Shown here: positions 3,941 to 48,885 of the stretch, piece by piece | Position numbering within the stretch: the stretch's first letter is position 1 | How the letters are laid out: each line of letters opens with the position of its first letter | IMG/VR virus record: IMGVR_UViG_3300020438_004021 | Coordinates: 1 to 64,000 of that record | Reading direction: 5' to 3' (one strand) | DNA from: a virus | Length of the DNA: 64,000 nt | Notes under the pieces: generated by a model | The model's input: the letters and a program-made list of their open reading frames with translations, nothing else | Told to the model about the DNA's origin: nothing | Database searches by the model: none | Position numbers and translations under genes: made by a program

Positions 3941-3975
3941 CCTATATACAATGAGCGGCGTTGTGAGTATATAGA

Positions 3976-5709
3976 ATGTTGATATTTAGAAAACTCAGAT
4001 GGAAGAATATGCTATCCACTGGCAATTCTTTTACAGAGATTTATTTAGACAAATATAATACTACCTTGGTATCCGGAGACAATGGGGCTGGGAAGTCCAC
4101 TATCTTGGATGCTCTGACTTATTCTCTATATGGTAAGTCCTTTAGGGGGATTAAAAACACTAGTCTAATCAACAGTATTAATGAGAAAGACTTCTCGGTG
4201 GAGGTAGAGTTCTCTATAAACAAGCATGAATATAAAGTCAGAAGGGGAATCAAACCCAAGGTCTTCGAAATCTTCAAAGACGGGTCCATGGTTCCCCAAA
4301 ATGCCACCGTCAAGGACTATCAGAATGTATTAGAGGAGCAGATTCTGAAAATGTCTTTCAAGGCATTTTGTCAGGTAGTGCTTCTAGGTTCCTCTAGTTA
4401 CATACCATTCATGAAGCTGCCTACTAAGGACAGGAAAATCATAGTAGAAGACCTGTTAGATATTAGTATATTTTCCACTATGAATGGTATTCTCAAGACT
4501 AGGATGTCCACAAACAAAGACAAGTTGACCATACTGGTCGGCAAGGTAAACGTTTTAGAATCTAAGATTCATGGTCAAGATACTTTGATAGAGAAGATAA
4601 AAGAGAAGTCCAAAGACTCAACCGAGGGATTCAAAGAGGAAATATCTAAGACCTTAAAGCAGGTGGAATCTTTACAAGAAGAGGTAGAGGATTTAAATTC
4701 TTCAGTGGACAACATGATGTCTTCAATAAGCGATAAAGATAAGGTATTCAGTGACTTAGAGAGGGCTGAATCTATCGAGAAGAAGCTTAAGAACAATTGC
4801 AAAAGATTGACTGGTGACTTGTCTCTATACGATAATAATAGTTGCCCCACCTGCCATCAGGATATAACTGAGGAGCACAGGGATAAGATGGTTGAATCCA
4901 AAAAGGGCAAGATTAAAGAGATAGAAGATGCTATCAAAAGCGTTTCTGAAAATGTAGTGTCCTTAGAGTCTACGGTCAGCAGAATCAACGAAGTCTTGAA
5001 CAACGTTCACAAGACCGAGATGGGCATATCCGATAAGAACGGTACTATATCTGCTTGTAACAAATATATCAGTAAAATGAATAAGAGTATGGAGGACCAT
5101 TCCAACAATGGAGACGAGTTGGAATCTGAGGTTACTCTTCTAGATTCACTCAAAGAAGAGCATATCAAGTTCGACTCCAATAGAAAAGAACTGGTAGATA
5201 GTAGAACTGAACTGGAACTAGTATCTAATCTACTAAAGGATACCGGAATAAAATCCAGAATCATTGGTTATTACCTTCCTATAATGAATAAGATGATTAA
5301 CCAGTATCTCACATCTATGGATTTTTTCTGCCACTTTAGTCTGGACGAGAATTTCGATGAGACTATCAGGAGCAGGCATAGAGATGAATTCACCTATTAT
5401 AACTTCAGCGAGGGAGAGAGACTTCGGATAGACCTATCTTTGCTCTTGGCATGGAGAGAGGTGGCAAGATTAAAGAACAGTGTTAACTGTAATCTGTTAA
5501 TATTGGACGAGGTATTTGATTCCAGTCTTGACTCAGTTGGTACCGAGGAATTTCTAAAAATATTAAGCAGTCTGGGCAATAAAGCAAACGTATTTGTAAT
5601 AACCCACAAGTCCGATCAGTTGATGGACAAGTTTGAGAATAATTTGCACTTCAAGAAGAAAGGCAATTTTAGCGAGGTAACTTTCAGGATGCATAGAGAT
5701 GAAGACTAA
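3976..5709 (+). CDS. 46: recombination endonuclease subunit gp46 (SbcC/Rad50 family)
   Basis: ATPase subunit of the gp46/gp47 nuclease. Walker A GDNGAGKST is at residues 34-42. A long coiled-coil region (about 190-440) is broken by the zinc-hook motif SCPTCHQD near residue 290. The C-terminal signature region FSEGERLRIDLSLLLAWRE and the Walker B LLILDEVFDSSLD near 508-520 follow. Length 577 aa is like T4 gp46 (560). The start ATG has no strong ribosome-binding site. Its last codons overlap the following methylase gene by 11 bases. Confidence 0.95.
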   Translation: MLIFRKLRWKNMLSTGNSFTEIYLDKYNTTLVSGDNGAGKSTILDALTYSLYGKSFRGIKNTSLINSINEKDFSVEVEFSINKHEYKVRRGIKPKVFEIFKDGSMVPQNATVKDYQNVLEEQILKMSFKAFCQVVLLGSSSYIPFMKLPTKDRKIIVEDLLDISIFSTMNGILKTRMSTNKDKLTILVGKVNVLESKIHGQDTLIEKIKEKSKDSTEGFKEEISKTLKQVESLQEEVEDLNSSVDNMMSSISDKDKVFSDLERAESIEKKLKNNCKRLTGDLSLYDNNSCPTCHQDITEEHRDKMVESKKGKIKEIEDAIKSVSENVVSLESTVSRINEVLNNVHKTEMGISDKNGTISACNKYISKMNKSMEDHSNNGDELESEVTLLDSLKEEHIKFDSNRKELVDSRTELELVSNLLKDTGIKSRIIGYYLPIMNKMINQYLTSMDFFCHFSLDENFDETIRSRHRDEFTYYNFSEGERLRIDLSLLLAWREVARLKNSVNCNLLILDEVFDSSLDSVGTEEFLKILSSLGNKANVFVITHKSDQLMDKFENNLHFKKKGNFSEVTFRMHRDED

Positions 5710-33037: not shown

Positions 33038-34097
33038 CAAAAAATTCATTAATATCATATCTTCAGAGTTGAACAAATTCAAGTGGAAGAAAGACAATCT
33101 CGCCATTTGTAGATGTCCAATTTGTGGAGATTCCAAGAAGAACCCCAATAAATGCAGGGGTTACTTCTATCAGAAACACGGCAGGTACTTCTACAAGTGT
33201 CATAACTGTGGCTATTGGTCGAATATATATAATTTTCTTAAGGAGGTCTCTCCTAGTCTATGCAAGGAGTACTCCTTAGAGAATTTCAAGAATGGTATGA
33301 GCAATACCAAACGAAACAATAGCAAGAAGAATGACAAAAGTAGAGAGGAAAGTATGCTGAACATTAATTTTGGTAGGACTCCCAAAAGACCGAGAGATGG
33401 ATATAAAATCCTCGAAGGGTTGGAATGCCTCAAAGACTTGCCGGAAGAACACGAGGCAGCAAAATTCGCTAACCTCAGGATAATACCTAAGCAACATTGG
33501 AACCTTCTGTATTATACGGAAGACTTCGGTTCTTTGATGAGGAAGTTGGACCCTACTTGCCTTCCTGTGGGCAAAGAGTCGAGATTGGTGATACCGTTCT
33601 TCAACAAGAAGGGAGATGTGGTTGCTGTTCAGGGAAGAGCATTGAATATGAATGCCGAACACAATGCTAGGTCTACTGTTAAGTACATAACCGTTAAGGT
33701 GGATAAAAGCATAGACAGGTTGTGGTATGGTCTATGGAGATGTGACCCCAAGAAGACAGTGTATGTGGTCGAGGGACCGATCGACAGTCTCTTCATTCCT
33801 AACTCCATCGCCATGGTGGGGGCAGGAGCAATCAATAATATGCCTAGCAGATTGGTTGACAGCAATATGGTGTTTGCCCTAGATAATGAACCCAGAAATA
33901 AGCAGATAGTGCAATACAATGAAGAACTGGTCAGACAAGGCAAGAAAGTCTGCGTATGGCCTAAGGGTATAGAAGAAAAAGATATTAATGACATGTCCTA
34001 TAGTATTTCTACCAAGAAAATTAAGAAAATTATGGACGAGAATTCTTTCAGTGGACTTGAAGCAACCGCTAGGTTGAGGGAGTGGAAAAAAGTATGA
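33021..34097 (+). CDS. 61: DNA primase gp61
   Basis: Primase that makes RNA primers with gp41. N-terminal zinc-binding domain CRCPICGDSKKNPNKCRG then YKCHNCGYW (two CxxC pairs near residues 31-34 and 58-61). The TOPRIM motif VYVVEGPIDSLF is near 246-257, followed by FALDNEPRNKQIV with the DxD-like acidic site. 358 aa, matching T4 gp61 (342). ATG 33021 is preferred over GTG 33006. Overlaps the glutamine synthetase start by ATGA. Confidence 0.94.
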   Translation: MSVLTDKKFINIISSELNKFKWKKDNLAICRCPICGDSKKNPNKCRGYFYQKHGRYFYKCHNCGYWSNIYNFLKEVSPSLCKEYSLENFKNGMSNTKRNNSKKNDKSREESMLNINFGRTPKRPRDGYKILEGLECLKDLPEEHEAAKFANLRIIPKQHWNLLYYTEDFGSLMRKLDPTCLPVGKESRLVIPFFNKKGDVVAVQGRALNMNAEHNARSTVKYITVKVDKSIDRLWYGLWRCDPKKTVYVVEGPIDSLFIPNSIAMVGAGAINNMPSRLVDSNMVFALDNEPRNKQIVQYNEELVRQGKKVCVWPKGIEEKDINDMSYSISTKKIKKIMDENSFSGLEATARLREWKKV

Positions 34098-35179
34098 GTT
34101 ATAATTGCAAACTAGAATATCTTTGGTTAGATGGTTACAAGACCTCCAATTTGAGAAGCAAGACAAAATATGTCAACCTTCCTGCTGAGTCTGGAGTACT
34201 AAGTATAGATGACATCCCAGAGTGGGGATTTGATGGTTCCAGTACTGAGCAGGCAGACGGGGATAACAGCGATTGCATCCTGAGACCCGTTTCCCTCTTT
34301 AATAATACTGTAGACGCTATTGCGGGTACTAACTCCTATATTGTGATGTGTGAGGTGTTCAACACTGATGGTACACCCCACAAGTCCAATACAAGAGCAC
34401 TTCTCCGTTCCTACATTGAAGATGGAGAGGACAAAGAAATTACTGATGGGATGTGGTTCGGCATAGAACAAGAGTACACCATCATGGACCCTAAGAGCGG
34501 AAGACCTCTCGGATGGCCCGAATCAAGATTTGAATACCCTGCTCCTCAAGGTAGATATTATTGTGGGGTGGGTGGTGATGTTGTCAAGATGAGACAATTG
34601 GTACATGAACATGCCATGTGTTGCATTACCGCAGGAATCCCACTATGTGGTACTAACGCAGAAGTCATGTTGGGTCAATGGGAATATCAAGTAGGACCAC
34701 AGTCTGCACTTAAGATATGTGACTCCCTTTGGGTAGCAAGATACATGCTTGAAGTCCTAGCAGAAACGCAGGATGTTTACATTAGTTTGGACCCCAAGTT
34801 GATCACTGGTGATTGGAACGGTTCAGGTGCTCATATTAACTTTTCCACATCTTATATGAGAGATCAGGGTGGTGAAGAGTACATAGAGAACATTTGCAAG
34901 TCACTAGGTGAGAAGCACGATTGGCACATTGCTAATTACGGAGATGGAAACGAAGACAGATTGACTGGTTCCCATGAAACACAGCACATAAGCAAGTTCT
35001 CATATGGAGACTCTGACAGAAGTGCTAGTATTAGAGTGCCTTCTTCTACGGCATCCAATAAGAAAGGGTATCTTGAAGACAGAAGACCTGCCTCTAACAT
35101 GGATCCCTATAGAGCGGTTAGATGTCTGGTAAGTACCATAAGTGTGGTAGATGCAGAACACCAGTGGCAGACTGTTTGA
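34094..35179 (+). CDS. glutamine synthetase, type II (GSII)
   Basis: Makes glutamine from glutamate, ammonia and ATP. It has the compact GSII architecture (361 aa; bacterial GSI is about 470). Motifs are WGFDGSSTEQADGDNSDCIL near 41-60, WFGIEQEYTIMD near 122, GDWNGSGAHINFST near 237 (GSII-type NGxGxHxNFST) and GNEDRLTGSHETQHISKF with ASIRVPSST near 280-320. The gene is fully coupled to gp61 upstream and thyX downstream. A phage-borne GSII would raise glutamine for purine and GMP synthesis, consistent with purB and guaB in this window. Confidence 0.93.
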   Translation: MSYNCKLEYLWLDGYKTSNLRSKTKYVNLPAESGVLSIDDIPEWGFDGSSTEQADGDNSDCILRPVSLFNNTVDAIAGTNSYIVMCEVFNTDGTPHKSNTRALLRSYIEDGEDKEITDGMWFGIEQEYTIMDPKSGRPLGWPESRFEYPAPQGRYYCGVGGDVVKMRQLVHEHAMCCITAGIPLCGTNAEVMLGQWEYQVGPQSALKICDSLWVARYMLEVLAETQDVYISLDPKLITGDWNGSGAHINFSTSYMRDQGGEEYIENICKSLGEKHDWHIANYGDGNEDRLTGSHETQHISKFSYGDSDRSASIRVPSSTASNKKGYLEDRRPASNMDPYRAVRCLVSTISVVDAEHQWQTV

Positions 35180-35999: not shown

Positions 36000-37937
36000 A
36001 TGATAGAATTACCAACACCATATCAACAGTTTATCCACCTCTCTAGATACAGTAGATGGTTAGATGAAGAAGGAAGAAGAGAGACTTGGGAGGAAACTGT
36101 TGATAGGTATATCGGTTTCTTTAGAGAACACCTAGAGAAGACTTTAGGTTATAAGATGAGTAAAAATACAGAGAAGACTATGAGAGATTCTATCTTGAAT
36201 CTAGAAGTCATGCCTTCAATGCGTTGTTTGATGACTGCTGGTGAGGCACTTAAGAAAGACGCAGTAGCTGGGTACAATTGTTCATACCTGGCAATCGATA
36301 GGGTGAGAGCATTTGATGAAGTCCTTTATGCCCTCATGTGTGGCACAGGTGTTGGTTTTTCAGTGGAGAGAGAGTATGTATCTAAACTACCCACTATTGC
36401 AGAAGAATTTGAAGAATCAGATTCTACTCTTGTTGTTCAAGATTCTAGAATTGGTTGGTGTAAGGCATATCGGGAGCTTGTATCTCTACTCATTACAGGT
36501 CGTGTACCAAAATGGGACATGTCACGTGTTCGTCCTGCCGGGTCGAGACTTAAGACTTTCGGCGGTAGAAGCTCCGGACCGGAGAGTCTATCTGATTTAT
36601 TTCAATTCACAGTCGAGGTCTTTAAAAAGGCTTCTGGAAGAAAACTTACCACCATTGAATGCCACGATCTCGTATGCAAGATTGCAGAAATTGTTGTAGT
36701 CGGTGGTGTAAGAAGGTCCGCACTCCTCAGTCTTTCCTCCCTGACAGACGAGAGAATGAGAGATGCCAAGCAGGGACAATGGTGGGTGATTGAACCACAA
36801 CGTGCGTTATCCAACAATTCGGTATGCTATAAAGAAAAACCTGAAATCGGGACCTTCATAGAAGAGTGGTTAGCACTATATAAATCGAAGTCTGGTGAAA
36901 GAGGTATCTTCAACAGAGCATCAGCACAAAAGACTGTATCTCAGATACAAGGTGGAAGAAGGGAATCTAACCATGACTTTGGGACGAATCCTTGCTCTGA
37001 AATCATACTTAGAGACAGAGAGTTTTGTAATCTGTCTGAGGTTGTCGCTAGACATGATGATACCATAGAGACTCTTAAGCAGAAGGTAAGGTTAGCATCC
37101 ATTATAGGAACTTGGCAATCGACCCTTACAGACTTCAGATACCTATCAGCAGAATGGAAGAACAATTGTGAGGAAGAAAGACTGCTTGGTGTCTCCATAA
37201 CGGGCATTATGGACTCTGCTCTCTTAAATGGAGATAAGAAGTCGGTATCAGCACTACCTGCTCTTCTGGAAGAACTCAGAGATATCGCTGTTAAGACCAA
37301 TAAAGAGTGGGCATCCAGACTGGGAATTAACCCATCAGCAGCCATCACATGTGTTAAACCGTCTGGTACTGTTTCACAGCTTGTCGATTCTGCCTCTGGT
37401 ATTCATGCTAGACATAACCCTTATTATGTAAGGACCGTCCGTGCCAATACCAAAGACCCTCTATGCAAGTTCATGATAGAAAAGGGGTTCCCACATGAGC
37501 CTTGCCACATGAAGTCTGACACCACTATGGTATTTTCATTCCCAGTAGAGTCTCCCAAAAGAGCAATTTTCAGACAAGATATGTCCGCTATCGAGCAGTT
37601 GGACCTTTGGATGATATATCAGAAGCACTGGTGTGAGCATAAGCCGAGTGTTACTATCTCAGTCCAAGAGGGTGAATGGTTGGACGTTGGTACTTGGGTT
37701 TACAATAACTTCGATGATGTGTGTGGAGTATCTTTCTTGCCATTCAGCGACCACTCATATAAGCAAGCACCCTATCAGGACTGCACCAAAGAAGAGTACA
37801 AGCAGCTCCTTAAGCAGATGCCAAAAGATGTGGACTGGGATGAACTGACTGCATATGAGAAGGAAGACAACACGGCTGGCAGTCAAACACTAGCCTGTTC
37901 TGGCACTTCCTGCGAGGTAGTTGACCTAACCTCATAA
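36000..37937 (+). CDS. adenosylcobalamin-dependent (class II) ribonucleotide reductase, monomeric type
   Basis: Reduces ribonucleoside triphosphates for DNA synthesis using coenzyme B12. It resembles the monomeric Lactobacillus-type enzyme (RTPR): GYNCSYLAID near residue 91, GTGVGFSVE near 114, SGERGIFNRASAQ near 298, the active-site NPCSEIILRDREFCNLSEVV near 329-348 and CVKPSGTVSQLVDSASGIH near 456. The C-terminal redox cysteines are CSGTSC. 645 aa. AAAGGACAAC serves as ribosome-binding site. A terminator follows, so it ends the upstream operon. Confidence 0.92.
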   Translation: MIELPTPYQQFIHLSRYSRWLDEEGRRETWEETVDRYIGFFREHLEKTLGYKMSKNTEKTMRDSILNLEVMPSMRCLMTAGEALKKDAVAGYNCSYLAIDRVRAFDEVLYALMCGTGVGFSVEREYVSKLPTIAEEFEESDSTLVVQDSRIGWCKAYRELVSLLITGRVPKWDMSRVRPAGSRLKTFGGRSSGPESLSDLFQFTVEVFKKASGRKLTTIECHDLVCKIAEIVVVGGVRRSALLSLSSLTDERMRDAKQGQWWVIEPQRALSNNSVCYKEKPEIGTFIEEWLALYKSKSGERGIFNRASAQKTVSQIQGGRRESNHDFGTNPCSEIILRDREFCNLSEVVARHDDTIETLKQKVRLASIIGTWQSTLTDFRYLSAEWKNNCEEERLLGVSITGIMDSALLNGDKKSVSALPALLEELRDIAVKTNKEWASRLGINPSAAITCVKPSGTVSQLVDSASGIHARHNPYYVRTVRANTKDPLCKFMIEKGFPHEPCHMKSDTTMVFSFPVESPKRAIFRQDMSAIEQLDLWMIYQKHWCEHKPSVTISVQEGEWLDVGTWVYNNFDDVCGVSFLPFSDHSYKQAPYQDCTKEEYKQLLKQMPKDVDWDELTAYEKEDNTAGSQTLACSGTSCEVVDLTS

Positions 37938-37941
37938 ATTT

Positions 37942-37949
37942 TATAAATA
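37942..37949 (+). promoter_or_regulatory. T4-type late promoter box TATAAATA (porin unit)
   Basis: Exact late box after the ribonucleotide reductase stop. A start near 37955 would make a leader of about 97 bases that includes the terminator-like hairpin and competing arms at 37976-38024, ahead of the 65 aa gene and the porin. Confidence 0.75.
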
Positions 37950-37975: not shown

Positions 37976-38000
37976 GGGGACACGTTGTCCCCACCATTTT
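37976..38000 (+). terminator. intrinsic terminator after ribonucleotide reductase, in the leader of the porin unit
   Basis: GGGGACA (37976-37982) pairs with TGTCCCC (37986-37992) around CGT and is followed by ACCATTTTT. It ends the reductase transcript, but it is also downstream of the late promoter at 37942. A later GGGGAC (38006-38011) could pair with its 3' arm, and GTCCC (38020-38024) could in turn pair with that, so the leader could act as an attenuator. Confidence 0.65.
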
Positions 38001-38051: not shown

Positions 38052-38249
38052 ATGAGCACCAAGTCTAAAGAGTCTTGCCCCGCGATGGGATGCAGCGACG
38101 CAGTTACTCGTACCTTAGGTAAGGTCGGAGTTTGTCGTAGCATGCTAATCACATTAGCACTACTTCCATACTCATGGAACGGTGTAGTATGGATTGCTGA
38201 TGCACTTCATTCACTTTGGAATGCTGCCACTAACGCAGTTGGAACCTGA
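38052..38249 (+). CDS. small hydrophobic protein (65 aa) preceding the porin
   Basis: ATG 38052 with AAGGAG 8 bases upstream; an earlier in-frame ATG (38004) lies in the structured leader and is rejected. The protein has a Cys-rich N-terminal part (CPAMGC, then VCRSM) and a hydrophobic segment LITLALLPYSWNGVVWIADAL that could span or lie on the membrane. Not recognised. It shares the late leader with the porin and uses CGT codons like it. Confidence 0.6.
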   Translation: MSTKSKESCPAMGCSDAVTRTLGKVGVCRSMLITLALLPYSWNGVVWIADALHSLWNAATNAVGT

Positions 38250-38279: not shown

Positions 38280-39449
38280 ATGAATATTTCAAAGAAAAAA
38301 TGGATGATGTACGGTGGTATTGCCGCTGCTATTCTAATCGCTTCGGTCGCGGTTGCTGATGGACCTTCATATGAAGACCTTCAGGCCCGTCTAGACGCAG
38401 CAGAGGCAAAGATCGCACAAATTGATTCCGACCGTGCTCCAAGCTGGTTGGAAAGCAGACGTAGTGAAGAAGTTCAATCGCTAGTGCAAGATGTCCTTGC
38501 CGATGCAGAAGCACGAACGATGATGCAGGGAGACAATTCCCCAATCACCGTCAATCTTCATGGATTTGCCATTACTCGTTGGGATTATAACAACGGTGGT
38601 GGTGTGGCAAGAAATAATGAATTCAGCATTCCATATGCTCGACTTGAAGTCTCAGGAGATATCCTAGACAAGGTTGGGTACTATGTCAGTGGTGAATATA
38701 GTGATTACACGAATGGCAGCATGGATCTTGTCGATGCCTACCTCACAATGGATGTGGGTCTGGGAGTAGACATGAAGGCTGGTCAGTTCGTGACTGCATT
38801 CTACCGAGGTTTCACTGATTCACCATTGGATCAGATCGCGGGAGAGTACAGCATTCTTGCTACCACTTTTGGTCAAGGACGATCGCAGGGTCTTCAATTC
38901 GCCAAGGATTTTGGTTGGTTGAATCTCTCTGCCTCTTATAACGACGGTTTCGATACCAGCAATTCCTTCATTGTGGACAACGACTACGGTGTCAGTGTTC
39001 GTGGTGACGTGGATTTTGGTGCTGGATTCCGTGCAGGTGCAGCATACGCCTATCAGTCAGAACTTGAAGATTACGGTACTTACACCGTGGACTTCGGGTA
39101 TTCTACCGATAAGCTAGATGCACAGGTCTCATGGGTTTCTGCCGACTATGCTGTCGGTGGGTACGGTGACAATTATGGTTTTAATGCCAGTGTTGCCTAT
39201 CGTTGTGCCGCCGACTTTACTGGTTTCGTTAATTATCAATGGGGCAAACTAGGGTTTGCTTCTGAAGATCTTAACGTGCTGGAAATCGGTGCTAACTACG
39301 ATATCAACGAATACGTTCGTTGGACCACCACCTTGGGTTATGCATTTGATGCCGTAGCCCCAGAGTGGAATACCGCTCGTTCTGGATGGAACAGCGGTTC
39401 GGAGAATGGTCAGTATCTACTGCGTACACAGCTTAGTGTAAGCTTCTGA
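38280..39449 (+). CDS. outer-membrane porin (phosphate-selective porin-like beta barrel)
   Basis: Secreted beta-barrel protein. Signal peptide at residues 1-26 (KKKWMMYGGIAAAILIASVAVA, cut after AVA). A coiled-coil segment YEDLQARLDAAEAKIAQID is followed by EEVQSLVQDVLADAEARTMM, then alternating amphipathic strands to a terminal aromatic residue (QLSVSF), as required for outer-membrane insertion. The N-terminal style resembles porins I recall from Planctomycetota. 389 aa, intact. CGT/CGA arginine codons and higher GC than the AGA-rich phage genes suggest recent capture from a bacterial host. It may alter uptake (for example phosphate, together with PstS) or block superinfection. Confidence 0.85.
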   Translation: MNISKKKWMMYGGIAAAILIASVAVADGPSYEDLQARLDAAEAKIAQIDSDRAPSWLESRRSEEVQSLVQDVLADAEARTMMQGDNSPITVNLHGFAITRWDYNNGGGVARNNEFSIPYARLEVSGDILDKVGYYVSGEYSDYTNGSMDLVDAYLTMDVGLGVDMKAGQFVTAFYRGFTDSPLDQIAGEYSILATTFGQGRSQGLQFAKDFGWLNLSASYNDGFDTSNSFIVDNDYGVSVRGDVDFGAGFRAGAAYAYQSELEDYGTYTVDFGYSTDKLDAQVSWVSADYAVGGYGDNYGFNASVAYRCAADFTGFVNYQWGKLGFASEDLNVLEIGANYDINEYVRWTTTLGYAFDAVAPEWNTARSGWNSGSENGQYLLRTQLSVSF

Positions 39450-39485: not shown

Positions 39486-39516
39486 AAAGGCCCTACCCTT
39501 CGGGGTGGGGTCTTTC
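39486..39516 (+). terminator. strong intrinsic terminator after the porin
   Basis: CCCTACCC and GGGTGGGG pair around a stable TTCG tetraloop (39499-39502). The stem extends with AAAGG/TCTTT to 13 pairs and is followed by a T-rich stretch. It clearly ends the porin transcript. Confidence 0.9.
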
Positions 39517-39671: not shown

Positions 39672-41993
39672 ATGGAAAAAACCTTGAACCGTACAAACCG
39701 TGACTCTAAAGATATCCTCGCTCGCCTACTGGCAGCCGAGAATATCGATGTCGAGCACCAACCAGTACCCACTGCGTACTTCGATACAGTCAGCCGTCGA
39801 CTGGTCCTTCCTCTCTGGGAGAACATGTCGAATGACCTGTATGACATGCTCGTGGGTCACGAAGTTGGACACGCACTATTCACCCCAACTGGCAATGACA
39901 AGACCAAGGCCGCAATCAAGCACATCGATGCTGATGCACCTGAAGGTCGAATCATGAATTACCTGAACGTCGCCGAAGATGTCCGCATCGAGAAGGCAAT
40001 CAAGGACAAGTTCCCTGGTCTCCGTCGCAATTTCACCAAGGCATACAAAGACCTTGCTGAACGTGACTTCTTCGGTATCGCAGGTAAAGACCACAACGAC
40101 ATGTCGTTCATCGACCGAGTGAATATCTACTTCAAAATCGGCATGCACGTCGATGTTACCTTTTCTCCTGAAGAGCAGGTAATCGTTGACATGGTTGATG
40201 CTGCTTATGACTGGGATTCGATGGTCGAAGCTGCAAAAGCGATGTATGGTCTTGCCAAGGAGCAGAAGAAGCAAGAGCAAGAGACCAAGATGGCAATGCC
40301 CGATGGGGATGGTGAATTCCAAGCACCTGCTGATGGTGAAGGCGATGCCGAAGGTCAATCAATGGGCATGGGTTCTGATGATGACAATCAGGACGAAGGC
40401 GAGCAGGAAGGTGCTTCTATGGGTGGTGATGACGAGCAGGGCGACGACTCTGCTGATTCCACCAGTGGTGGTGGTGAAGATTCTGGCGAATCAATGGAAG
40501 ACGATACCGATGATGGTGAGTCTGCTGATAGTCAGTCATCCACCAATGCAGATTCTGCCCAGAGCGGTGGAACTCAGCACGCCGACCAGATGATTGACGA
40601 GTCCGAGCTTCCTGATGACTGTGAAACGCAGAAGTCGATGAATCAGCAGTTGCAAGACAACTGCACGAACGCCGACCAGTACGACCAGAAGCGTCGTTCA
40701 TATGTCACCATGCCTAAGTCAAATACGGATAAGGTCATCGTTCCCGTCACACAGGTGATGGATGATTTTCGTCAGTATATTGTAACCTGCAATAGAGAAG
40801 ACACGAAGAACGGTGCTTATGGTGTCTTCACCAATTTCCAGAAGGAAATGTCAAAGACCGTAAATAAGATGGCACAGCAGTTTGAGATGAAGAAGTCTGC
40901 CGACCAGTACAAGCGTCGCAGCATCTCCGACTCTGGTATCATCGATACCATCAAGATGATTAACTACCGTTGGTCTGATGATATCTTCCTCAAGAACACG
41001 ACCATTCCTGGTGCCAAGAGCCATGGTCTGGTCATGTTCATTGACTGGAGCGGTTCCATGGCAGACCGAATGGCAGACACCATGAAGCAGCTGATGACTC
41101 TCGTCCTCTTCTGCAAGAAGGTCAATATCCCTTACGATGTTTATGCCTTCACTGGTTCATACAAGGAAGACGAAGTCGACGCAGGCAAGAACTACAAGGT
41201 GGGCGATGCTCAACTCGGTCAGTTCCGTCTTCTCAATCTCGTTTCCTCTTCGATGAAGAATCGTGACTGGACCGAGATGATGACCTATGTGACCATGCTT
41301 GCTAACAGTTTCGTGCATACGTACTACAGCACCTCCTCTGGTCGCTCCGAGTCCAGAGACACCATCCTAGACCCACAATACGGAGTGCGTCCTCGTGGTT
41401 ACAGCCTGGGTATGACTCCTCTCGATGACTGCATTGTCGCTGCTTCTGAAATCGTGAAGACTTTCAAGCAGAACCACAAGCTGCAGATTGTGAACGCAGT
41501 CTTCATGACTGATGGTCATACTTCGATGTCCCCACTCGGTGATGGTTGGAGAGGCAGCATCGTGTGGACCGGTGATAAGTTTGAGCAGGAACGTGATGTA
41601 AAAACAGTCTTGAAGGGTCGCAACGGCAAGATTTACAATGACCACAAGAGCACGACCGACAATCTGCTCGAATGGTTTACCGACAAGACCGGCATTCCTG
41701 CGATTGGTATCTTCCTCTGTGATGCACGTGACCTTTACTACAGCAACTTCGACGACAAGCAGATGGAAGAATTCAAGACCAAGAAATGCCTTGAAGTCGG
41801 TAAGCATGGTGGTTATAGCAACTACTACGTGATTGACACCAAGACCAAGAAGTTCAAGGGTGTTGATGACCTGAATGACAATGCAAGTGCGATTGCAGTT
41901 AGGAACGCATTCGTTCGTGAGTCCAAGATTCGCAAGACTCAACAGCAAATCATGAACAAGTTCGTTGACAAGATTTCGATGGAGACAGTATGA
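39672..41993 (+). CDS. CobT-like protein: metallopeptidase motif plus VWA domain
   Basis: A 773 aa protein. The N-terminal part has GHEVGHALF near residues 62-70 (HExxH zinc-peptidase motif) and NVAEDVRIEK. A long acidic, Ser/Gly-rich linker (about 205-315) follows, then a von Willebrand A domain with MFIDWSGSM near 456-463 (MIDAS DxSxS) and FMTDGHTSM near 616. Such CobT-like proteins occur in many T4-like phages, often with a CobS-type AAA+ partner, none of which is in this window. Arginine codons are mostly CGT/CGC, unlike the replication genes. Start ATG lies at the predicted transcription start. Confidence 0.82.
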   Translation: MEKTLNRTNRDSKDILARLLAAENIDVEHQPVPTAYFDTVSRRLVLPLWENMSNDLYDMLVGHEVGHALFTPTGNDKTKAAIKHIDADAPEGRIMNYLNVAEDVRIEKAIKDKFPGLRRNFTKAYKDLAERDFFGIAGKDHNDMSFIDRVNIYFKIGMHVDVTFSPEEQVIVDMVDAAYDWDSMVEAAKAMYGLAKEQKKQEQETKMAMPDGDGEFQAPADGEGDAEGQSMGMGSDDDNQDEGEQEGASMGGDDEQGDDSADSTSGGGEDSGESMEDDTDDGESADSQSSTNADSAQSGGTQHADQMIDESELPDDCETQKSMNQQLQDNCTNADQYDQKRRSYVTMPKSNTDKVIVPVTQVMDDFRQYIVTCNREDTKNGAYGVFTNFQKEMSKTVNKMAQQFEMKKSADQYKRRSISDSGIIDTIKMINYRWSDDIFLKNTTIPGAKSHGLVMFIDWSGSMADRMADTMKQLMTLVLFCKKVNIPYDVYAFTGSYKEDEVDAGKNYKVGDAQLGQFRLLNLVSSSMKNRDWTEMMTYVTMLANSFVHTYYSTSSGRSESRDTILDPQYGVRPRGYSLGMTPLDDCIVAASEIVKTFKQNHKLQIVNAVFMTDGHTSMSPLGDGWRGSIVWTGDKFEQERDVKTVLKGRNGKIYNDHKSTTDNLLEWFTDKTGIPAIGIFLCDARDLYYSNFDDKQMEEFKTKKCLEVGKHGGYSNYYVIDTKTKKFKGVDDLNDNASAIAVRNAFVRESKIRKTQQQIMNKFVDKISMETV

Positions 41994-43830: not shown

Positions 43831-43904
43831 GCTCCTGTAGCTCAGTTGGATAGAGCAGCGGACTTCTAATCCGCAGGTCACACGTTCGAGTCGTGTCGGG
43901 AGTG
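43831..43904 (+). tRNA. tRNA-Arg (anticodon UCU)
   Basis: Canonical cloverleaf: acceptor GCTCCTG with CGGGAGT (two G-U pairs), D-stem GCTC/GAGC, anticodon stem GCGGA/TCCGC with loop CTTCTAA (anticodon TCT), T-stem ACACG/CGTGT with TTCGAGT loop. It reads AGA, the favoured arginine codon of most phage genes here, which host tRNA pools may supply poorly. CCA is not encoded. Confidence 0.95.
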
Positions 43905-43910
43905 CTTATT

Positions 43911-44891
43911 ATGATGAAAAGACACCAGATTAAAATCGGCAATTCGCTTAGTGTCCTGAAGGAAATGGATGATAAAAGTGTGGACTGTGTTGTAACCTCC
44001 CCACCTTATTGGGGATTGCGTGATTATGGTGGTCAAGAAGAACAACTGGGTGCTGAAGGCACACCGCAAGAATTCGTTGACAATATGGTATCCATCTTTA
44101 GTCAAGTACATAGAGTCCTTAAGGACGAAGGGACTGTCTGGTTGAACCTTGGCGACAGTTATTATAACTACAGACCTGGTGCAGGTCAGACACTAATCAA
44201 GCAGACAATCGCTAACAGCGACCAAGACCTTCCCCAAGAGTGTGCTAGGAGAGGGAACAAGATTAAGGGTCTCAAAGAGAAGAGTCTAGTTGGGATTCCT
44301 TGGAGGGTAGCACTTGCTTTGCAGGAAGATGGATGGATTCTGAGACAGGATATCATCTGGCACAAACCCAATCCGATGCCCGAATCCGTAAAAGACAGAT
44401 GTACCAAGGCACACGAATATATCTTTCTCCTAACCAAGAATAAGAAGTATTACTACGACAATGAAGCAATCCTAGAGCCGATCTCTGAGATATCAATAAA
44501 GAGAGCGGAGTATGGTTGGGATTGCGACAGACCTTCAACCAAGAATGCATCAATGGGAGGCGAGGGTATCCACGTCGAAAAGATGGGGACCAGATTCGTT
44601 AATCCCAAGGGCAAGAACAAACGGTCTGTCTGGACGGTAAACACAGCGAGTTATAAAGATGCTCATTTTGCGGTTTACCCCACCAAACTGATTGAACCTT
44701 GCATCTTAGCAGGATGCCCTGAAGGTGGAACCGTTCTGGACCCATTCTCGGGAAGCGGAACAACGGGTATCGTTGCCCTTAACAACGGACGAAAATACAC
44801 CGGAATCGAGTTGAATCCTGAATACGCAGAACTATCGGAAAAGAGAATAGCAGAAGAATGTCCCAACAACCTAACGGAGCTTATGCAATGA
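43911..44891 (+). CDS. DNA methyltransferase (SPPYW type), second of two in the window
   Basis: DNA amino-methylase with motif IV TSPPYWGLRDYGG near residues 29-41 and motif I FSGSGTTG near 279-286, in the order IV then I (beta class). SPPYW is common in N4-cytosine methylases. ATG 43911 (MMKRHQIKIGN) is used rather than a GTG inside the tRNA at 43893. 326 aa. No partner nuclease is seen. Overlaps the next gene by ATGA. Confidence 0.87.
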   Translation: MMKRHQIKIGNSLSVLKEMDDKSVDCVVTSPPYWGLRDYGGQEEQLGAEGTPQEFVDNMVSIFSQVHRVLKDEGTVWLNLGDSYYNYRPGAGQTLIKQTIANSDQDLPQECARRGNKIKGLKEKSLVGIPWRVALALQEDGWILRQDIIWHKPNPMPESVKDRCTKAHEYIFLLTKNKKYYYDNEAILEPISEISIKRAEYGWDCDRPSTKNASMGGEGIHVEKMGTRFVNPKGKNKRSVWTVNTASYKDAHFAVYPTKLIEPCILAGCPEGGTVLDPFSGSGTTGIVALNNGRKYTGIELNPEYAELSEKRIAEECPNNLTELMQ

Positions 44892-45973
44892 GAACAGCAA
44901 TCACATTTGATGACGTTTTAATCGTCCCACAATACAGCGAAGTGACACCAGACATGGTGTCGACCAAGACCACCTTGGTGAAAGGAATCGAACTGGACAT
45001 CCCAATTATGTCCGCACCGATGGATTCGGTGACAGAGGTCGAAATGGCAACAGCGATGGCTGAAGAAGGTGGTATAGGCATCCTACACAAGAATATGGGT
45101 CATGATGAGCAGATACGTCAGGCCTATGAGATTAAGAAGTGGGGTCATAAGTTGGGTGTTGCTCTTAGCCCAACCAAGTACACCGATAGGATGGTTGAGG
45201 AACTGGTTGATGCCGGTATCGACGTGTTCGTCCTTGACAGTGCACATGGTCATTCTAAGAACGTGATGGATGCAACTGAGCGACTTAAGAAGCTCACCGA
45301 TATCCCTGTCATTGTAGGAAACATCGCAACCGCAGAAGCCGCTATAGAACTCTACAATGCTGGTGCTGATGCCCTAAAGGTGGGTATCGGTCCTGGTTCC
45401 ATTTGTACGACGAGAATCGTAGCGGGTGTGGGTGTCCCCCAAATCACCGCTATTCAGGATGTTGCCAGTGCCAATGGAGGCAAACTCGACATCCCCATCA
45501 TTGCAGACGGTGGTATCCGGTACAGTGGTGATATCGCTAAAGCTATCATGGCAGGTGCGAGTTGCGTGATGCTAGGTTCCCTCCTTGCAGGACATGATGA
45601 AGTCCCCAACTACCAAGGTGTCATCATTGACGGCAAGCGGTATGTCCCTTACCGTGGGATGGGAAGCGAAGGAGCGATGGGTGACGGTTCTGGAGACAGG
45701 TACAGTCAAGACGGCTCAGATAAGTTCGTCCCTGAGGGCATCGAGGGTTGCGTCCCTTATAAGGGTGCAGTTGCAGACACTATCTACCAGATGGTCGGCG
45801 GTCTAAAGTCAGCAATGGGTTATGTCGGTGCTGCAACGATTGAAGACCTGATTAAGCAGGGCGAAAGTTATTATCACATGGAAGGGTTCGTAGGGGTAAG
45901 TCCTAACTCCCTGCGAGAGAACCACCCACACGATGTCCATATCACCAAGGAAGCACCCAACTATGCGATTTGA
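44888..45973 (+). CDS. guaB: IMP dehydrogenase (GuaB), CBS-less form
   Basis: Converts IMP to XMP, the committed step to GMP. Typical motifs: [16 protein letters not shown] near 6-21, [12 protein letters not shown] near 38, the active-site [20 protein letters not shown] near 166-185, [15 protein letters not shown] near 206 and the flap region [10 protein letters not shown] near 253. 361 aa without the CBS pair, so it escapes CBS-type nucleotide regulation (free in phage hands). Start overlaps the methylase stop; 11-base overlap with the deaminase gene. Confidence 0.92.
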
Positions 45974-46967
45974 TAAGATGCCAAAAGCGGAGCTGCACCT
46001 TCATATCGAAGGCACTCTCGAACCCGAGTTGATGTTCGAACTGGCAGACAGGAACGGGATGAAGATTCCCTACAAGACAGTCGAAGAAGTACGAAGTGCT
46101 TATGAATTCGACAGTCTTCAGTCATTTCTAGACATCTACTATGAAGGTGCTAAGGTCCTGAGGACTGAGCAAGACTTCTACGATTTGACTTGGGCATACC
46201 TGATGAAGTGCAAAGAGCAAAGAATCGTGCATACTGAAATCTTTTTTGACCCCCAAACGCACACCCACAGGGGCGTGGATTTTGGGACAGTTATTAACGG
46301 AATCAGCAACGCACTTCTAGACGCAGAAGCAGAATTCGGAATCACTTCTCTCATATTCATGTGCTTTTTGCGACACCTAACCGAGACATCTGCCTTCGAA
46401 ACCCTAGAGATGGCAATGCCTTATCAAAACAAGATTTATGGTGTTGGTCTCGACTCTTCAGAGGTTGGCAATCCGCCCTCTCGATTTAAAAAGGTGTTCG
46501 CAGAAGCGGCTGAACGTGGATTTGAGGTGGTATGCCATGCAGGAGAAGAAGGACCACCTGAGTACATTTGGGAGGCATTAGAACTAGGTGCTTCTAGAAT
46601 CGACCACGGTGTCCGTTGCCTTGAATCCTCCACCATAACAAACGAGCTGGTAGATAGGCAAATTCCTCTTACGGTCTGCCCTCTTTCTAACGTCAAACTC
46701 AAGGTCTTTGACACCCTCAAGGGTCATAATCTCAAGAAGATGATGGACAGAGGTCTTTTCGTTACGATTAACTCAGATGACCCAGCCTATTTTGGTGGTT
46801 ATCTCAACGAGAACTATGAGCAGTGCATGAAGGAGCTTAATCTGAGCGAGAACGATATGACCGTCCTCCTCAGCAATTCTTTCTTAGCATCTTATCTTTC
46901 CCCACTAGAGAAGGGACGATACATTGAGAAGATTGAAAAATGCATGCACATAGAGAAGGCGGTGTAG
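45963..46967 (+). CDS. adenosine deaminase superfamily enzyme, probably adenine deaminase
   Basis: Metal-dependent aminohydrolase. AELHLHIEGTLEPELMF near residues 9-25 carries the HxH metal site, HAGEEGPPEYIWEAL near 192-206 the catalytic His/Glu, SRIDHGVRCL near 210, and NSDDPAYFGGY near 269. The TLEPELMFELADRNG, LTWAYLMKCKEQ, DSSEVGNPP and SDDPAYFGGY variants match the bacterial/fungal adenine deaminase branch (Aah1-like) rather than adenosine deaminase. It would turn adenine to hypoxanthine, which salvage makes into IMP for GuaB next door. 334 aa. Confidence 0.85.
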   Translation: MRFDKMPKAELHLHIEGTLEPELMFELADRNGMKIPYKTVEEVRSAYEFDSLQSFLDIYYEGAKVLRTEQDFYDLTWAYLMKCKEQRIVHTEIFFDPQTHTHRGVDFGTVINGISNALLDAEAEFGITSLIFMCFLRHLTETSAFETLEMAMPYQNKIYGVGLDSSEVGNPPSRFKKVFAEAAERGFEVVCHAGEEGPPEYIWEALELGASRIDHGVRCLESSTITNELVDRQIPLTVCPLSNVKLKVFDTLKGHNLKKMMDRGLFVTINSDDPAYFGGYLNENYEQCMKELNLSENDMTVLLSNSFLASYLSPLEKGRYIEKIEKCMHIEKAV

Positions 46968-47893: not shown

Positions 47894-47966
47894 GCGAGTG
47901 TAGCCCAACGGCAGAGGCAGTGGACTTAAAATCCATACAGTGTGGGTTCGAATCCCACCACTCGTA
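47894..47966 (+). tRNA. tRNA with anticodon UAA (Leu), short variable arm
   Basis: Acceptor GCGAGTG/CACTCGT (one G-U pair), D-stem GCC/GGC, anticodon stem GTGGA/TCCAT with loop CTTAAAA (anticodon TAA, reading UUA), and T-stem GTGGG/CCCAC with loop TTCGAAT. The anticodon and T arms resemble T4 tRNA-Leu. However, the variable region is only ACAGT, whereas bacterial and T4 tRNA-Leu are class II with a long arm. Total 73 nt. CCA is not encoded. Confidence 0.85.
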
Positions 47967-47985: not shown

Positions 47986-48885
47986 ATGAATTTATCTAAC
48001 TGTTTATTGTCTGTAGTAGTAACGTCTGCGTCTGTATTGGCAAATGGGACCGTTAAAATAGACGGATCTTCCACTGCATACCCCATCACTGAGGCAGTTG
48101 CAGAAGAGTATGCTGAGGTAGCACCCAAGGTTAGGGTGACAGTGGGTGTGTCTGGTACTGGTGGTGGTTTTAAAAGGCTTATTGCTAATGAGACTGATAT
48201 TTCCAATGCTTCTCGTCCTATTAAAGAAAAAGAAAGAGAAGCATGCAAAGAAGCAGGGATCGAGTTCCTAGAACTGCCCGTGGCATATGATGGTCTAACC
48301 ATTGTTGTTAATAAAAAGAACACATGGGTAGACAGTCTAACAATGCACGAATTGAATGCTATCTTCGAAGGTGGTCTAAAGAAATGGTCAGATGTTAGAC
48401 CAGAATGGCCCGACAGCGATATTAATATCTTCTCTCCAGGCACCGACTCTGGTACTTTTGACTACTTTAAGGAGGTAGTCATCGGCAAGACTGGATCAAT
48501 GAGATCAGACATGTCTGTTAGCGAGGACGACAACGTATTGGTCAAAGGTGTTGCTGGGAGCACTAATGCTCTTGGATTCTTTGGTTGTGCTTATTACTAT
48601 GAAAATGCTGACAAGTTGAAGGTTGTCCCCATTGTAAATCCTAAGAATGGCAAGAAAGTCATCCCTTCAAGAAAGAATATCGAGTCTGGTGCTTATTACC
48701 CTTTCAGTAGGCCTTTGTTCATATACGTCAACAAGGCATCTATGAGGAAGCAGTCAGTCAGATCATTCGTAATATTTTATCTAGATAAGTGTCCCAAGCT
48801 ATCTGTTGAAGTGGGTTATGTGCAACTACCTCCCGAAAAGATGAAAGAGGTTAAGGCGAAGGTCAGAAAAAAGGATAAAAAATGA
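47986..48885 (+). CDS. pstS: phosphate-binding protein PstS
   Basis: Periplasmic substrate-binding protein of the phosphate ABC transporter. Signal-like N-terminus (MNLSNCLLSVVVTSASVLA), then KIDGSSTAYPITEAVAEEY, VSGTGGGFKRL and SNASRPIKEKE (phosphate-contacting Ser/Thr/Arg regions), FSPGTDSGTFDYF and STNALGFFGCAYYYENADKL. 299 aa from ATG 47986; the longer frame from 47857 runs through the tRNA and is rejected. Phage pstS is well known from marine cyanophages. It boosts phosphate uptake during infection, fitting the porin upstream. Confidence 0.93.
   Translation: MNLSNCLLSVVVTSASVLANGTVKIDGSSTAYPITEAVAEEYAEVAPKVRVTVGVSGTGGGFKRLIANETDISNASRPIKEKEREACKEAGIEFLELPVAYDGLTIVVNKKNTWVDSLTMHELNAIFEGGLKKWSDVRPEWPDSDINIFSPGTDSGTFDYFKEVVIGKTGSMRSDMSVSEDDNVLVKGVAGSTNALGFFGCAYYYENADKLKVVPIVNPKNGKKVIPSRKNIESGAYYPFSRPLFIYVNKASMRKQSVRSFVIFYLDKCPKLSVEVGYVQLPPEKMKEVKAKVRKKDKK

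Follow-up and report, generated by a model that had tools for sequence, protein, structure and literature searches.

Why would a T4-like phage carry the gene of an outer-membrane porin, where did this gene come from, and what would its product do in the infected cell? These questions are raised by a locus in the first 64,000 bases (positions 1-64,000, hereafter the window) of the 136,240-base virus record IMGVR_UViG_3300020438_004021. A sequence-only reading had seen there a porin recently taken from a bacterium.

The porin gene and its predicted fold

Judging from its gp23 capsid and T4-type replication genes, the window phage is a T4-like myovirus. Its gp23 is nearest to that of Pelagibacter phage HTVC008M (53.5% identity), and it encodes a gp32-type ssb (phrog_224) and a family B polymerase. 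The features of the locus are listed in Table 1. Among other metabolic genes, a glutamine synthetase lies at 34082-35179 between primase and thyX (Pfam Gln-synt_C, E 2.9e-18). IMP dehydrogenase, adenosine deaminase and an adenylosuccinate synthetase-like protein are encoded at 44858-46967 of the window and at 636-1709 of L008, a purine set that is unusual for one phage.

Table 1. Features of the porin locus and of the phosphate-binding protein gene in the window
Feature	Position	Strand	Remark
Ribonucleotide reductase	36000..37937	+	Gene preceding the cassette; same place in L003, L005 and L006
TATAAATA, T4-late-promoter-like site	37942..37949	+	Precedes small ORF and porin
GC-rich stem-loop GGGGACACGTTGTCCCC	37976..37992	+	Between promoter-like site and small ORF
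Companion protein, 65 aa; starts with CPxxxC and has a single long hydrophobic helix	38052..38249	+	ATG at 38052; conserved beside porin
Porin_O_P-type outer-membrane porin, 389 aa	38280..39449	+	ORF, Pfam, AlphaFold2 model
Terminator-like hairpin and T-rich tail	39495..39511	+	3' of porin
PstS-like phosphate-binding protein	47986..48885	+	Listed ORF start 47857

The porin ORF starts with ATG and has AAGGAGATAATCCT 5' of it. Its product is predicted to comprise a signal-peptide-like segment (residues 1-26), a periplasmic helical part to about residue 84, and a 16-stranded barrel (89-388) with a terminal Phe. It matched Pfam PF07396 (Porin_O_P) above the cut-off (E 1.5e-6; 28.1 bits vs. 20.9), and the terminal Phe was found in all 69 complete distinct viral porin ORFs. 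With the 16-strand AlphaFold2 model, this bears out the first claim made for the gene, that it encodes a porin. The claimed signal peptide also held on visual inspection (N-terminal KKK, hydrophobic residues and AVA followed by D, with LSVSF at the C-terminus), as did the terminal Phe. The coiled-coil start is a weak prediction since residues 1-31 and 44-84 fall below pLDDT 50. The porin has an overall excess of acidic residues (52 D+E vs. 25 K+R). No match was retrieved from PHROGs and NCBIfam, from 50,697 phage records by tblastn, or from the PDB by phmmer, and four porin queries plus the small ORF found nothing among GenBank phages.

The AlphaFold2 model was built from ten sequences and reached a mean pLDDT of 72, with helices at residues 31-49 and 57-80 ahead of the strands. 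In VIA-align, OprP (Z 27.2) and OprO (27.0) filled the top three rows and other porins scored 24.6 or less; Foldseek ranked OmpU first and OprP tenth. When a profile of phage and Planctomycetota sequences (A4) was compared with the PDB, the sole match below E 0.5 was OprP (E 9e-5). Thus, the model presents the window porin as a 16-stranded barrel of the OprP/OprO fold, although a common fold proves no function. OprP and OprO are the phosphate and polyphosphate porins of Pseudomonas aeruginosa and belong to the same Pfam family (PF07396). They superpose on the phage model with rmsd 2.8-2.9 over 295-299 residues, at 16-18% identity in the structural alignment, but the phage porin is phage-borne and has a small companion gene. 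Predicted viral barrels of similar fold are also present in BFVD: A0A8S5S2G8 from Siphoviridae sp. ctBLh2, annotated as 'Phosphate-selective porin O and P', and 'OmpC' entries from uncultured Caudovirales. These share 10-16% identity with the window porin and are named by annotation only.

Phage and bacterial relatives of the porin

Our first viral scans retrieved five porin relatives, and a wider profile gave 101 confirmed ones, of which 80 were kept. The porin of G004 (136,012 bases) is 97% identical to the window porin. For a 72-row tree, 62 further phage porins were thinned to 34, and L002 and L004 were omitted as near-copies; Sphingobium was left out of the later trees due to its very long branch. 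The 38 phage representatives formed a single phage-only clade (support 100/100), and the window porin sits deep inside it. The stem of this clade measures 0.74 changes per column. A smaller tree also joined all sampled viral porins in one fully supported clade with a long stem. The sequence-only reading had itself named a place deep among phage-only sequences as evidence against a recent capture, and its 'recently taken' is refuted by this clade.

Codon choice was the other ground for suspecting a recent arrival from the host, and the observation itself was confirmed: AGA and AGG make up 2 of the 16 arginine codons of the window porin, against a fraction of 0.84 genome-wide. Among the 106 ORFs with 150 aa or more, none has a lower fraction and the next gene equals it (0.125), while third-position GC is ordinary (0.395 vs. 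a mean of 0.402). The origin that might be read into it was rejected, as gp23 and the gp32-type ssb of the same phage have the same bias (0.273 and 0.25). The porins of 71 relatives hold 183 AGR and 845 CGN codons, compared to 2832 and 2309 in other ORFs, and AGR was lower in the porin than in other ORFs at all 66 loci with enough codons. The next gene in the window (39672-41993) is as CGN-rich as the porin (4 AGR, 28 CGN) and some further 3' neighbours are similar, so a neighbour effect is possible in this phage, but the evidence from relatives favours the porin itself. The bias in 66 of 66 testable relatives therefore suggests lasting selection, probably for strong expression, which would account for the codon pattern better than recent arrival. 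A phage tRNA-Arg(TCT) at 43831-43905 of the window reads AGA/AGG, the codons that the porin shuns.

Recent acquisition from the host thus keeps in its favour that the porin's arginine codons differ from those of most phage genes. Against it stand the fully supported clade, the same codon pattern in relatives down to 35-44% identity, and bacterial relatives just 25-30% identical. We consider it highly improbable, and the trees together with the clade-wide codon pattern led us to rule it out as an explanation. By its sequence relationships, the porin appears to be a long-kept phage gene rather than a recent theft.

The more distant origin points to Planctomycetota. Two peptide patterns scanned in 84,980 species genomes hit at least 584 stretches; among the matches listed, three encode porin relatives, and all three are from Planctomycetota. 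A six-row phage profile, run on Planctomycetota whole genomes only, matched 40 of 199 Planctomycetota genomes and 146 of 397 genomes in the class of G085, often over the full length (best matches: G356, E 2e-55; G583, E 4e-50). Planctomycetota kinship, as first proposed, was supported to this extent: all cellular relatives confirmed, in the pattern scan and with the phage profile in Planctomycetota whole genomes, are Planctomycetota porins. The Pfam Porin_O_P model also matches Caulobacter and Bacteroides controls, and the G356 porin had only four weak matches among plasmids, all from Pseudomonadota.

The Planctomycetota porins of Porin_O_P type (G356, G583, G479) are homologous to the phage porin over its whole length, and share with it a WLxxxRxxEvxxLVqDVLADAdxR stretch ahead of the barrel. 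The phage porin is shorter (389 vs. about 413-450 aa) and lacks stretches found in most of its Planctomycetota counterparts. Besides, it has a small ORF beside it that was not found at the bacterial loci or genomes searched. Our best trees nest the phage clade among Planctomycetota. However, a constraint keeping Planctomycetota together was not rejected (p-AU 0.25 in the smaller tree, 0.32 with 72 rows), and this non-significant nesting counts against the ancestry part of the explanation that we prefer. Planctomycetota ancestry is the best reading of the sequences, not a proved one, and Planctomycetota would be plausible hosts of the window phage.

A two-gene cassette and its expression signals

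The porin rarely stands alone. A scan for the small ORF found 38 viral loci, and both genes were present at 100 of 110 viral loci (some on the same contig), with the porin alone at six and the small ORF alone at four. Of 106 viral loci with the porin, 100 thus also have the small ORF, and three of the six porin-only loci (L250, L252, L256) start at a contig end or within 77 bases of one. In 71 distinct pairs, the small ORF precedes the porin in 65 and follows it in six. It was absent from the bacterial stretches fetched; a search of 392 Planctomycetota genomes also gave no match, and shows little as it had no positive control. AlphaFold2 placed a helix at residues 29-64 in a poor model (pLDDT 56). 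This helix and the hydrophobic make-up suggest that the companion is a membrane protein.

The surroundings of the cassette vary. In L004 (11-1933), a clearly different ribonucleotide reductase precedes a cassette almost identical to that of L003, which suggests from sequence comparison that the cassette moves between phages. In L208 (2975-3736) and L220 (6180-7019), the small ORF is followed by a different leader-bearing ORF of 253-279 aa that is not the porin; it had no Pfam match above a cut-off and is possibly a substitute barrel. A trypsin-like lipoprotein gene lies 3' of the porin in L003 (10807-11565), L004 (3659-4414), L005 (5618-6334) and L006 (9240-9959), with Pfam assignment run for L005 and L006. 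The window phage has a protease of the same PHROG at a distant place (70954-71712).

Two types of promoter-like site precede the cassette. In the window and in L002 it is TATAAATA, which by its consensus we take to be a T4-late-type promoter site. The phage record holds 28 such sites where 6.6 were expected, and 19 of these lie no more than 200 bases 5' of an ORF that is 100 aa or longer. Across relatives, it was found in 3 of 64 cassette windows, compared to 34 of 267 control ORFs. The second type resembles host promoters: L003, L004 and L006 have a perfect TTGACA-N16-TATAAT immediately 5' of the cassette, the sole perfect copy in each stretch, and L005 has a site with 11 of 12 matches. When the 64 cassettes with enough upstream sequence were scored for sigma-70 sites, 27 reached 12/12 and 18 reached 11/12, so that 45 of 64 were near-perfect; shuffles gave 0.3 expected at 11, and 9 of 267 other ORFs scored so. 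Terminator-like sites were not above expectation in the scanned stretch (2 vs. 1.6 from shuffles).

Phage-borne porins as such are already known. Lambdoid prophages carry Lc (of PA-2) and NmpC, which are phage- or prophage-encoded like the window porin but enterobacterial. In marine viruses, a viral OmpL lies next to glnK-amtB (PMC8115048). It shares with our porin the phage-borne, nutrient-uptake setting and the predicted barrel; it differs in being Bacteroidetes-type and nitrogen-linked, and the accessible part of that paper mentions no small companion gene. In the open-access literature searched, we found no report of phages with a porin of the Porin_O_P type or with this two-gene cassette.

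Tentatively, and with some doubt, we suggest that the phage-only protein of about 65 aa and an exchangeable barrel form a dedicated outer-membrane remodelling cassette in a large uncultivated T4-like clade, usually driven by a host-type promoter that ranks among the strongest of the locus. The small protein would act together with the barrel, as its repressor, gate or assembly factor, and be retained while the barrel is swapped (Porin_O_P-like, Porin_4-like, or the putative barrel of L208/L220).

Phosphate genes, possible function and meaning

The phosphate theme first comes from the bacterial relatives. G356 and G583, the two top-scoring genomes in the profile search of the G085 class, both hold phosphate genes beside the porin: in G356 (L101) porin, DUF47, PiT and PstS form a row on the same strand, and in G583 (L104), as in G479 (L155), the porin is followed by PstS. 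PiT or PstS lay within about 5 kb of the porin at 6 of 20 porin loci examined from the matches of that search, a count without a random-locus control. In the reverse view, the porin was found at 1 of 20 PstS stretches examined, and most phosphate clusters located by way of PstS are without it.

The window phage also encodes a PstS-like protein, more likely from Met44 at 47986 because the listed start overlaps a tRNA-Leu (47894-47966). It shares 68% and 65% identity with the porin-adjoining PstS of G583 and G356, 56.7% with the best plasmid PstS, and 32.8% with a protein of Pelagibacter phage Mosig. In the PstS tree, the window and one other phage (L123) stand beside 18 Planctomycetota rows (91/95), with four other Planctomycetota rows elsewhere. 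A full PstS was found in none of 30 other porin-phage records, G004 included; such absences of PstS or PiT are soft, except perhaps in G004, since records may be fragments. Six apparent PstS matches in these records all fall within residues 4-44, where the ORF covers or adjoins the tRNA-Leu, and joint acquisition of porin and PstS is therefore unsupported.

A PiT-like permease (Pfam PHO4 E 2e-6, below the cut-off) is encoded in 3 of the 30 records (L006 at 3974-4918, G601 and G602; 85-100% alike), with thyX adjoining it in L006, where alone this was seen. From these counts, the phosphate helpers seem optional extras and the porin the constant part. The earlier proposal that the porin feeds phosphate with PstS thus survives in its phosphate theme, through Pfam, the OprP/OprO fold and the PstS/PiT neighbours, and is unsupported as a standing porin-PstS pair.

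We favour, with evenly balanced confidence, anion or phosphate uptake through an OprP-like phage porin in the host outer membrane. The porin would have an ancient origin in a Planctomycetota-type porin and be kept, by a large clade of uncultivated T4-like phages, as a two-gene cassette with the phage-only hydrophobic protein of about 65 aa. The cassette's own strong promoter would drive it during infection. The porin, exported and placed into the host outer membrane, may then let in more small anions, with phosphate as the likeliest, to supply phage DNA synthesis; the small protein may act together with it, and the PstS of the window phage would catch phosphate in the periplasm.

Against this uptake reading stand the Porin_4 matches, the missing PstS in other records, the acidic protein and the single porin among PstS clusters. 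Porin_O_P was matched by 16 of 38 phage representatives (E 0.001) and Porin_4, a general porin, by 10, so the substrate may vary or be broad. A general porin for nutrients, not favouring phosphate and raising permeability during infection, would agree with these Porin_4 matches, with the lack of PstS in 30 and of PiT in 27 of the 30 records, and with the acidic protein. We find it rather unlikely, given that OprP/OprO score about 2.5 Z above other porins, the window protein is above the Porin_O_P cut-off, and the closest bacterial relatives have phosphate genes alongside.

Surface remodelling is the other alternative, and we judge it unlikely. Here, the phage porin would replace or mask host porins, which would deprive other phages of their receptor or keep the cell intact until lysis, and the small protein would help repress or displace host porins. 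There is a precedent in a prophage porin whose transcript yields ipeX, lowering OmpC, as described in the accessible part of PMC12197685. The conserved cassette and its strong promoter-like sites fit this alternative, and the other ORF in place of the porin in L208 and L220 is expected if any barrel served. It leaves unexplained the kinship to phosphate-cluster porins and the PiT/PstS genes of some phages.

Under the favoured uptake reading, the finding would extend phage help with phosphate, which is known at the inner membrane and in the periplasm. For soil phages, phosphorus-acquisition genes such as pstSCAB, pit and phoU are reported in the accessible part of PMC10987575; the word porin is absent from its main text and from an ocean AMG catalogue (PMC11360552). 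A clade-wide phage porin would add the outer membrane to the list of structures that phages retool.

To our knowledge, little is known of T4-like phages of Planctomycetota. The porin is a testable lead toward such hosts, the small ORF and porin together provide a marker for one virus group, and the companion is a conserved small viral protein with a defined partner.
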